A stretch of DNA of 64,000 nt from Branchiostoma floridae. Taxonomy: Eukaryota; Chordata; Leptocardii; Amphioxiformes; Branchiostomatidae. This document shows positions 31,981-52,425 of this stretch, in pieces. Both the position numbers and the translations under genes were made by a program. The stretch's first letter is position 1. Each line of letters begins with the position of its first letter. The stretch is from the NCBI RefSeq assembly GCF_000003815.2, contig NC_049987.1, forward strand, positions 23,055,661 through 23,119,660, written 5' to 3'. The notes beneath the pieces are model-generated. The model was given only the letters and a program-made list of their open reading frames with translations. It had not been told where the DNA came from and searched no databases.

Positions 31981-34900
31981 ATGGGAGACCAGGTTCTGGT
32001 GCTGGGCAGCGGCGGGAGGGAACACGTCTGGCATGGAAGATCGCCCAGTCGCAGCACGTCGGACAGGTGCTGGTTGCCCCCGGCAACGCTGGCACGACAG
32101 GGGTGGCAAGATTAGCAACACAGGTTAGTGTGCTTTGATCAAGCTTCTCACAGCCCTTCCTTTTGGTCATCAGGCCACTAGCCCAACCACCCCCTGTTAG
32201 AGAGATTGTGTTACATAGGCTACCAACTTCATCATATATTTCAACCATACAATGATTGATTAAATACTCAATATTCAAATTTAGTAAAAACATGCACAAA
32301 CCTATCAGGGCTCGAAATACTTTTTTCTGCTTACATGCACTGGTGCAGGTAACATTGCAGATTACCTGCACCAGACAAATTTTACCTGCACCACTCTGAA
32401 TTTAGGAAGTATGGATCATACTAAAATTGTTCAGGTACTATTGCTATTTTATATTTTATACTTTATAGGTAACAGTCAATGCAACTAATAACAATCCATG
32501 TACACCTACATGACAGGACATTATTGTATAAAGCTCACTACTTGGACCAGTGCAGATTAGGTGCAGGTAAACATCAGAAAAACCTGCACAGCTCCAATTT
32601 TACCTGCACTAACCTGTATATGCAGGTGGTATTTCGAGCCCTGCCTATATTAATGATATCTGGAATATAATGTTCTCACTATCTGAAGCATTGGTCAAAG
32701 CCGAGTAGTTAAGTCATTCAATATTTAGATCACTGTACTATTAGAATCTTGGTTTTGTTAACATCTTTCACCTGTTGTTTTTAAAAACAGGGTATTTGAA
32801 TTTTGACTGGATATCAAGTCAACATATGGTGGTTTCAAATTGCAATATGAAACACAGGTTTTTACAAAATATTGCAGTTTGAAACCACTGACCATTGATT
32901 TGATGTCCCTAGATACCTGTTTAGTTACCCCACAGATAAAATAGTGAACCAGCATTACATGTTGTTGTCTTATAAGTTATATCTCATATGAAACCTGATG
33001 TCCAACATTCCAGATGTACCCAAAGCCTTCCCCGACCTGGCCCAGTGGTGCTTGGATAACAAGATAGACATGGTGGTGGTGGGTCCCGAGGCACCGCTCG
33101 CTGACGGGGTGGCCGACACACTCTCTGACAAGGGTGTGCCCTGCTTCGGTCCCTCTGCTAAAGCTGCTCAGATAGAAGCTAGCAAGGTTGGTGGGAAACT
33201 GCTTTAAAATTTGTGTTTGTTTTACTTGTCATAAGTTTGTCTATAAGTTTGTGAAAGGCCACTGGGTTAGCGTTGCTGTTTTATACAAACGCTGAAAGAA
33301 TATAACACACTCCACGCAAGCAAATGGATTTCTTTTGTTCAAATTTCTTGTTAATAAAGATTGAAGTTGTTGGTGCAGGTTGAAACAATGTGTGGAATTT
33401 TATCCTTTTTATTAGTAGTTTGGCAATTAAATCAGGGTTTTCCAACCTGGGTATGGCATAGATAAAATACAACACGGTCTATTTTCTATCACGCTCAGTC
33501 CCAGCCCTACCGCTGGTCAGACAGACCCCGGCCTTCAGGCGATCCAACCTGCGGTGGGGCTAGTACCTCGGGTGATACAGATATATTCTATATTTTTACC
33601 AACCTAAGGTAGTTATTTTCGGCGTAATGGTACTGACTTGAATGTCCCATGTTAATCAGGCGTTCTCCAAAGCCTTCATGGATCGGCACCACATCCCTAC
33701 AGCCAGATGGAAGCAGTTCACGGATGCCGAGTCTGCCTGTGACTTCATCAACAGGTCTGGGATCTTTTTTGTATCGTCTTGGAGTCACTTTTAACTTAAG
33801 GATGCTGCTATAGAATTGTGCTCACTAGAATGAATTGTTTTGTTTACGCCAAAAAGTAGTTACTTAAGCAACTGGATATGGTTTTGGAAACGGTCAGACG
33901 TTTCAACTACTGATCCAGTAGTTTTCGTCAGTGACACTGACACAGTGTCTCATTACCTGGATGTCAACCTACATCGACATAATTGTTCAGTTTGTTTTTA
34001 TTGCATACCCAGTAAACCGCCTCATGGCGCAACACTCCAGGTTTGTACTTGACAATACAAGCTGCATATAAGGACAGATTTATTTGTACTGCTCACACTC
34101 ATGGGAAGGACTCTTTTCAATAAGTTTGGTGTGTTCTTTGTAACATGCTCGAGGTGTGGCTCTCCTCAACCTTGGGACTTCCATTAAATGCAACAACCTA
34201 GAAAATTCTAAATTGTGACAGTTAATTGTGTGGAGAGCATGATATTTGTCAACTCTAACCAAAGACTGCATTGCCATGTTCCACAGCGCTGATTTCACAG
34301 CTCTGGTTGTGAAACACATTTACATCAATTTTAAGTACTAGTACCAAAGTTCAGATTTTTGGGACAGATGGTGTAGAATTTTTGTCCATCCCAACAGTAA
34401 CAATTGTGAGTATTTGTAATATGACCATGATATCTGTGTCCCTACCCTCCACAGTGCTAACTTCCCTGCCCTGGTTGTGAAAGCGAGCGGCCTGGCGGCG
34501 GGAAAGGGCGTGATCGTTGCTGGGAGCAAGGCTGACGCCTGTTCTGCTGTCAGGGATATCCTTGAGGTTTGTGCAGTGAGCTGTGCTCATACATGTAGTT
34601 CTATGGCTTTAAAAACTGTTGGGGACTAAGATTTTTAGACTTCAAGGATATTCTGGAGGTTAGATTAGTGAGCTGTGCTCGTAGCTCCATAACTTAAAAA
34701 AACTGAGACTTAGATGATAAAACTTCTCTTTAAGTCAAGGATATTCTGTGTGTTCTTTGTAAGCTGTGTTTGTGTATCATGTAGGTCTATTATATTAAAC
34801 CTATGTATCATGAAACTGTCTAAGAGTAAGACTAAATGAGGTTTTTTACCTCTCTGTAGCTTGAGCTGCTGATCTGTACTACAATGTACTTTGGTGCCTT

Positions 34901-51437: not shown

Positions 51438-52425
51438 CACAAAGAGTCTTCTACCAATATCTTAGATTCATTTAAATCTGCAGCACTTTTTTGCATCAGG
51501 GTGAACATCAGAAGTTCATGTCTTTCAAGACTATTTTAAGACGATGGGAATCGAGAGACCGATACAGAACAACGCAATGAGTCTTCTAATAGTATCTTCA
51601 TTCAAGTCTGCAGCACTTACTTTGAGCATCATGGTGAGAATCAGAAGTTCACATCTTTTAGTTTGCAGTCAAAACGCAGTTAAAGACTGGTATGCATCGA
51701 CAGTCAAGGGAAACTGGTTCGCTCTGATACGGAATTATAACACTTAAAAGTTTTCTAACAATAGTCAATATTGTAACTCGATGTAGTTTAGACATCCAGG
51801 TAAAAAGATATGAAAGGTTGCAAGTTACCCTTTGGGCCATGGAGTTGGTCGCACGCAGACTGGTGGCCATCGACAGTCAAGGGAAACTGGTTCGCTCAGA
51901 TACAGAATATGACTAGACTCATTCACGTTATAATTTTTTGCATTGGGGTGAAAATGACAAGTTCATGTCTTTCAAAACAATTTTAAGACTGGTGGGAATC
52001 GACAGACCGAGACAGAAAAACACACAGAGTCTTCTAACAATATCTTAGATTCCTTTAAATCTGCAGGACTTACTTTTTGCATCCGGGTGAAAATCAGAAG
52101 TTCACGTCTTTCAGTTTGCAGTTAAAACAACTATAGTAACACATTTAAAGACTGGTATGCATCAACAGTCAAGGGGAACTGGTCCGCTCCGATACAGAAT
52201 TACACAAAGAGTCTTCTAACAATAGTCAGTATAGTACATTTTGTGTAAGTCAATGAAGATTGGACATCCAAGTAATATGATATGAAAAGCAACTTACTCA
52301 AGCAACAGGATACATTTTTTTAGCTGTCATGCGTTCATGATCAGGCCATGGAGCTGGTAGCTTGGAGACTCGTGGCCATCACAGTCAAGGGAAGCTGGTC
52401 CGCTCCGATACTGAATTAAAAAAAA
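51438..52425 (+). repeat. Degenerate copies of the GART terminal exon
   Basis: After the TAA stop, 3' UTR text and the last coding segment recur. Copies of 'cgacagtcaagggaaactgg' with 'ttcgctc.gatac.gaat' are at about 51697, 51870, 52160 and 52380. The 51837 copy extends back to 'catggagttggtcgcacgc' and lacks the stop in register. Spacers repeat 'acacaaagagtcttctaac' and 'cagaagttca.gtctttca'. It is a tandem array of about five diverged units. Confidence 0.9.

Follow-up and report, generated by a model that had tools for sequence, protein, structure and literature searches.

The subject of this analysis is GART in the amphioxus Branchiostoma floridae, together with the partial copies of its exon edges that lie in tandem beside the originals. 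The window, meaning the whole stretch of DNA analyzed, comprises 64,000 nucleotides at positions 23055661-23119660 of contig NC_049987.1 in a 513-Mb assembly, and it represents one haplotype; all positions below refer to it unless a control locus is named. The exons of GART were mapped from splice-site anchors and one open frame, from ATG to stop. The frame was found to be open across all junctions from the end of exon 1 to the stop, with the Pfam domains GARS_N, GARS_A, GARS_C, AIRS, AIRS_C, and Formyl_trans_N in that order. The two frame breaks in exon 1 (31981-32123), one of which is close to a G run, are probably sequencing or assembly errors.

Local direct duplications between the ATG and the stop were identified by self-comparison (blastn, score of at least 20, distance of at most 1.5 kb, low complexity masked). 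Eleven families were obtained, of which nine cover an exon edge, namely, the acceptors of exons 4, 11, 12, 18, and 20 and the donors of exons 4, 10, 14, and 15. A tenth copy, from the donor of exon 6, lay under the blastn cut-off and gave a z of 7.8 against shuffles in a longer alignment. Copies are present for 10 of the 38 coding splice sites (five donors and five acceptors), in each case in the adjoining intron. Since the open frame uses the outermost site at duplicated edges, the copies fall in introns or behind the stop.

31981..51436, + strand: GART gene, 20 coding exons, exon 1 with two frame breaks (splice-site anchors, open frame, Pfam)
34280..34314, + strand: exon 4 acceptor copy (true 34448-34482); 83% over 35 nt, z of 10.8 for the longer unit
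34642..34800, + strand: exon 4 donor, two copies beginning at 34642 and 34733 (junctions 34658 and 34751; true 34566); exon-side match weak in the second (alignment)
36953..37067, + strand: exon 6 donor copy, weak (junction 36968; true 36711)
39590..40211, + strand: exon 10 donor, three copies spanning 39703-40205 in an array of about 173-bp units (self-comparison, alignment)
41552..42047, + strand: exon 11 acceptor, two copies (junctions 41575 and 41961; true 42116) (self-comparison, alignment)
42731..42951, + strand: exon 12 acceptor, two copies (junctions 42739 and 42851; true 42998); near-identity on the exon sides, no relation between the intron sides
44453..46826, + strand: exon 14 donor, 45-bp array of 49 boundary units including the true one, a lower bound because an N run (45653-45784) interrupts the array
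47632..47752, + strand: exon 15 donor copy (junction 47713; true 47551); the frame of exon 15 continues into it with no stop (alignment)
49505..49567, + strand: exon 18 acceptor copy (junction 49517; true 49591), in-frame stop (alignment)
51104..51187, + strand: exon 20 acceptor copy (junction 51151; true 51245), in-frame stop (alignment)
51684..52424, + strand: end of the coding sequence, four copies (51684, 51836, 52149, and 52345) with 3' flank, no splice site involved (alignment)

The earlier note on this DNA had listed tandem copies of GART exon edges at about ten places, and every listed copy was found, the exon 6 donor being weak. The list was incomplete in that it overlooked the exon 4 acceptor copy, with which exon 4 is duplicated at both its acceptor and its donor edge, and a 43-bp array in a neighboring sulfotransferase gene (see below). 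Its statement that both sides were copied, in separate tandem duplications, was borne out by the five donors and five acceptors with their differing units. Of the unit lengths that it gave, the 45-bp unit was recovered (37 of 48 spacings in the exon 14 array are exactly 45 bp), while the unit of about 390 bp, at exon 11, proved to be a spacing of 155 bp lengthened by about 230 bp of additional sequence that separates the first copy from the second. The units measure 45-257 bp, copy number varies across the ten sites, and many copies are 75-90% identical. Local matches at score 20 are predominantly direct (66, versus 11 inverted, in the whole window minus 44400-46900). The remaining two of the 11 families are parts of dispersed repeats, one found again at 57741-57935 and the other at 34002 and 42458, the latter element having dozens of matches genome-wide. 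A short dispersed element with dozens of genome matches was observed at 42442-42600 and 49764-49901.

Structure of the copies

GT or AG was retained at 15 of 15 GART copy junctions examined, partly by construction because the places were picked by GT/AG motifs, and all 48 units in register in the exon 14 array keep the splice motif. In most pairs the exon side aligns over a greater length or more closely than the intron side does; exons 4 (donor) and 10 depart from this. At exons 4 (donor), 10, 11, and 20, the copies clearly have their intron sides in common. Over 50 nt, intron-side likeness was marginal for exon 18 (P = 0.12) and gave P = 0.43 for exon 6, and the longer unit alignments of both were significant. 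On the intron side, the inner copies of the exon 10 array agree with one another at 48-50 of 50 bases, whereas the true edge agrees with them at 30-32 of 33. Homogenization of inner units but not of edge units is a trait of the boundary-spanning amphioxus minisatellites termed mirages, and it was found in this array, the one array examined.

Differences between copies and true exons were counted by codon position. Sixteen ungapped GART segments, some of which share history, gave 16, 8, and 41 differences at positions 1, 2, and 3; 43 were synonymous and 22 were not. This count took in a single exon 14 copy and excluded the exon 15 copy and the fourth post-stop copy, both of which are gapped, as well as the second copy of the exon 4 donor. 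The last three, added as further segments, gave synonymous and nonsynonymous counts of 7 and 1 (fourth post-stop copy), 2 and 4 (second exon 4 donor copy), and 3 and 9 (exon 15 copy, where 9 of the 12 differences thus alter the protein), bringing GART over 19 segments to 55 and 36. Copies from the control loci described below gave 21, 19, and 47 differences (47 of 87 at the third position), 46 synonymous and 41 not. The third-position excess had P values of 9e-7 for GART and 6e-5 for the controls against a one-third share, and of 0.0025 and 0.057 against a share of 45%, our approximate figure for a copy evolving neutrally next to a constrained exon, which transition bias would raise. As a proof of function the codon-position test was rejected, and it serves as a lead only; an exon 11-12 subset was chosen post hoc.

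Intron 10 of GART (39557-42116), located between the GARS and AIRS domains, contains four AATAAA motifs in addition to the exon 10 and 11 copies. From other animals, a GARS-only message that ends in the corresponding intron is known.

Exon-edge frequency in GART, control loci, and neighboring genes

The earlier note had proposed a permutation test of whether duplications meet exon borders more often than chance, and the test revealed an excess. Edge families numbered 9 of 11, with 4.8 expected under random sliding and 2.9 under viable placement, which excludes placements swallowing an exon or lying inside one (P = 5.5e-5). This initial permutation included dispersed repeats, which later runs left out. 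With the two dispersed families removed, 9 of 9 lie at edges, compared with 4.2 for random placement (P = 3.8e-4) and 2.7 for viable placement (P = 2.5e-6; P = 0.006 with fivefold detection odds), although all of these GART values, and the detection-corrected ones given below, overstate the significance because the gene was picked for its unusualness. In a decay simulation of GART, edge copies were detected 1.1-1.8 times as often as intron-only copies at up to 20% divergence per copy, an advantage that rose to between 4.5- and about 14-fold at 25-30% divergence.

A genome baseline was obtained from 40 control loci, 277,139 bp in total, which surround exons that Pfam had matched in genes for chaperonins, myosins, and tRNA synthetases. 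The sample covered 54 of 60 chaperonin matches, 101 of 142 myosin matches, and 16 of 19 class I tRNA-synthetase matches; the remainder consisted mainly of isolated matches, matches that looked intronless, and additional copies within the myosin clusters. Duplications touched 15 of 171 control exons (about 9%), a count that keeps locus L031, maybe a true alternative exon, and locus L027, whose copy is partly internal to the exon. Of the 15 touched exons, 14 were aligned, and most proved to have edge copies with a donor or acceptor. Of 65 control families, 16 touch exons and 49 are other, although some of the latter may touch further exons since control exons were defined as Pfam-matched stretches only. 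The 16 show no excess over the 16.2 expected at plain random placement, and viable placement predicts 7.8 (P = 0.002). Dispersed repeats account for at least 29 of the 49 other families versus 2 of the 16 exon-touching ones.

GART was hit more densely than the controls (Fisher P = 6.4e-4), and the probability of at least 8 touched exons among 20 at a rate of 15/171 was 1.7e-4. The amphioxus genome has some 20,000 genes, so that a handful of GART-like genes would be expected. In one myosin locus (L035), 3 of 3 sampled exons were hit. GART, whose density would have made it an extreme case according to the earlier note, is therefore dense, with 8 of 20 exons hit, but it belongs among the densest genes of a range that extends across the genome and is not unique. 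At L035, a 1.3-kb array of 50-bp units (1652-2933) lies over the acceptor of an exon that we take from its motif to be the myosin P-loop exon, and the units displayed carry AG/GT twice. PFAS, also a purine enzyme gene (L044, reverse strand, 4761-5650), was examined because its hidden Markov model rows overlapped and was excluded from the 15/171 rate; one exon has its acceptor side copied once and its donor side copied twice.

HELB, BMT2, and DNAJC28, in the same window, had been described as free of copies. For HELB (10 sites), BMT2 (14 sites), and DNAJC28 (2 sites) this was upheld, with no boundary copies at 26 sites. The sulfotransferase gene of the window has an array at 1 of its 14 sites.

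16148..16718, - strand: 43-bp array, about 14 copies, over the donor (exon edge 16681) of a carbohydrate-sulfotransferase-like gene (Pfam Sulfotransfer_1)

In that gene edge families number 1 of 6 versus 0.95 expected, which indicates no exon-edge bias. When 9 nt were trimmed from the exons in the family test, 8 of 20 were hit in GART versus 2 of 24 in the window's other four genes (P = 0.016), one of these two being a repeat inside a HELB exon. The last HELB exon carries a tandem repeat of 117-bp spacing (3358-3587) within its open frame, which shows that the same duplication process acts inside an exon too. DNAJC28 has an intron-only 31-bp array of eight nearly identical copies (27477-27723) about 19 bp upstream of an exon. 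Elsewhere in the window, long inverted repeats at about 55700-56600 and 62100-63200 were seen by eye to flank a reverse transcriptase stretch (about 59300-60500) resembling a long interspersed nuclear element.

The earlier note had also pointed to copied AG/GT sites as raw material for intron gain. This model is indeed published (PMC3087553). Gain was examined by comparing the two ends of each of 39 window introns as copies of one exon stretch, with 1482 mismatched donor/acceptor pairings as the reference, and no significant case was found among the 19 GART introns. GART intron 18 was considered as a recent gain (GGTTCGTACAACAGT at its start and GGTTTGTTCAACAGT at the next exon, 13 of 15 alike, score 9) and was rejected, as 28 of 1482 mismatched pairings equal it. 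For the HELB intron at 1779-2119, TCTGTGCACAG followed by GTA at the donor and TCTGTGTACAG followed by GTA at the acceptor are alike at 13 of 14 positions, in register across both AG/GT sites. The score of 11 was equaled by 1 of 1482 mismatched pairings, and as the best of 39 introns it corresponds to about 0.03 expected. These data are suggestive of an intron that may have arisen by tandem duplication of an AG/GT site.

Origin of the exon-edge copies

We consider it probable that the GART edge copies are products of ordinary tandem duplication, filtered by selection and by the longer recognizability of exon sequence. The duplications would be produced frequently in this genome, by slippage or unequal exchange, and about ten separate local events would have struck GART exon edges, some of them expanding to minisatellite arrays. 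Selection would remove duplications lying within an exon or taking in a whole exon, whereas edge-crossing duplications would leave a usable outer site and so persist. Exon-bearing copies would in addition be recognizable for longer, as the real exon hardly changes. The copies would be mostly passive decoys in decay, and the units of an array would homogenize one another as in other minisatellites. Decay is seen in the stops of the exon 18 and 20 copies, in the loss of GT from control copies at L007 and L015, and in the exon 15 copy, where 9 of 12 differences alter the protein; several copies look dead or dying. The earlier claim that independent events all hit the boundary agrees with the permutation excess but was overstated, since the pattern is partly forced by protein breakage and longer recognizability, and the post-stop copies lie off splice sites. 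A splice-site-specific mechanism was rejected as weakened by these post-stop copies, which border the end of the coding sequence where no splicing takes place, and by the control duplications that fall at unremarkable positions within introns.

Several observations weigh against filtered tandem duplication as a full account. The detection-corrected edge share for GART was 31% (P = 7e-4), or 50% if all copies are old (P = 0.03), compared with the 9 of 11 seen; survivorship and detection thus account for the GART excess only in part. Among unique control families, some of which remain repeats because dispersal was judged against about 350 kb only, 14 of 34 touch an exon, compared with 9.2 at random (P = 0.04) and 3.9 under viable placement (P < 1e-5). 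With double, triple, and fivefold detection odds, the last value became 0.0016, 0.025, and 0.26, respectively. From these sequence comparisons a modest genome-wide exon-edge bias of duplication is likely, but not secure. The two exon 12 copies are alike at 47-49 of 50 positions on the exon side and have intron sides resembling unrelated acceptors (P = 0.76, 0.76, and 0.23), which plain head-to-tail duplication does not predict. Moreover, 18 of 20 differences between the exon 11-12 copies and the true exons are synonymous (a subset chosen after the data were seen), as are 7 of 8 in the fourth post-stop copy. The exon 11-12 copies look as if they had a coding past, and the pattern could reflect old duplication with gene conversion confined to the exon part or an origin in the other haplotype.

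Such an origin could lie in exon-anchored repair between divergent haplotypes, in which only exons would align and synthesis into nonmatching intron would re-prime, leaving an extra edge that is often the other allele's. Duplications would then be biased to exon edges, and copies would have coding-like differences and unrelated introns. This is consistent with the excess of unique exon duplications in GART and the controls after moderate correction for detection bias, with the intron sides of the exon 12 copies being like random acceptor pairs (P = 0.23-0.76), and with the synonymous bias at exons 11 and 12. The mechanism was nevertheless deemed rather unlikely. Intron sides are common at exons 4 (donor), 10, 11, and 20, and each exon 11 copy departs from the true exon at 6 of about 20 codons, more than amphioxus heterozygosity would lead one to expect between alleles. 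Codon bias is weak in the controls and reversed in the exon 15 copy (3 versus 9), and the assembly holds no second full copy of 41500-43250. That amphioxus has a genuine exon-edge duplication bias of this kind, with the copies being partly other-haplotype exons, of which GART exons 11-12 would be the example through their synonymous differences and the unrelated introns at exon 12, is in our judgment unlikely; if true, hyperpolymorphism itself would drive exon-edge duplication and intron gain.

The use of some copies in splicing was judged very unlikely. The exon 14 and 15 decoys could give longer in-frame exons, and the exon 11-12 acceptors could give alternative or terminal exons. With the 45-bp unit, 44 of 48 exon 14 spacings are divisible by 3, and translation of exon 14 could run on, in frame and with no stop, to any of the first nine decoy donors, each of which would add a repeat of 15 residues. 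The exon 15 copy, also open and in frame, would lengthen the protein by 54 residues. Retention of GT or AG at the 15 copy junctions, partly by construction, and the synonymous bias at exons 11-12 would also fit such use. However, of the 48 decoy donors at exon 14 just 10 share the frame of the true one, the donor copies of exons 4, 6, and 10 are out of frame or past a stop, and the acceptor copies reach a stop after 1-48 codons. Published mirages also leave splicing undisturbed (PMC3087553). An assembly artifact, in which two haplotypes or slipped reads were joined in tandem, would suit a draft-quality stretch, of which the N run among the exon 14 units and the two breaks in the frame of exon 1 are signs, and one BflGb6 array was aberrantly assembled in the draft genome (PMC3087553), but it is highly improbable given units of 45-257 bp with differing copy numbers at ten sites and identities of often 75-90%, the same pattern at unrelated loci, and published cases backed by trace data, RT-PCR (reverse transcription-PCR), or re-sequencing (PMC3087553, PMC3902484).

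Comparison with known systems

The GART copies are mirages, a known phenomenon with an intron-gain model already published, and not a new kind of element. The mirages that the earlier note had mentioned for amphioxus Adh were confirmed in the literature (PMC3087553, PMC3902484). Boundary duplications were described and named mirages in the globin genes BflGb6 and BflGb9, with Adh3 (Canestro et al. 2002), a retinol dehydrogenase, and presenilin cited as further cases; RT-PCR suggested normal splicing, and the intron-gain model was proposed (PMC3087553). Splice-site repeats were also reported in lancelet PGBD5, with troponin C cited (PMC3902484). Neither a genome-wide mirage survey nor a report on amphioxus GART was found among titles and abstracts, in a coverage outside which most subscription papers lie. 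What the present analysis adds is the missed copies, the baseline rate, evidence that other genes share the pattern with GART, and the anomaly at exon 12.

These data provide a rough rate, about 9% of sampled exons, for a phenomenon so far reported gene by gene, and thousands of splice sites in the genome may carry decoy copies. The lancelet would thus be a natural test bed for the choice of the outer site by the spliceosome and for the tandem-duplication route to introns. For annotators and assemblers there is a warning, as partial exon copies may be called exons.

The mirage traits found in GART are boundary-spanning units (10 of 38 sites), involvement of both 5' and 3' boundaries, and retention of AG/GT. 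The Adh3 mirages (as described in PMC3087553) are likewise tandem repeats over exon-intron boundaries in units with AG/GT, but their units are reported as 10-72 bp compared with 45-257 bp in GART, which has about ten sites plus the coding end. PGBD5 resembles GART in that imperfect tandem repeats, of 60 and 108 bp, cover splice sites at both the 5' and the 3' side, and differs in having fewer sites (PMC3902484). Intron gain by tandem duplication of AG/GT (PMC4974935, PMC3443670) draws on the same raw material, whereas GART is without a demonstrated new intron. BflGb6 and BflGb9 share with GART units over boundaries (150-160 bp, 81-100% identity) and concerted evolution within the array; they differ in having one boundary per gene and in a haplotype copy-number difference, which was shown in the globins (PMC3087553).

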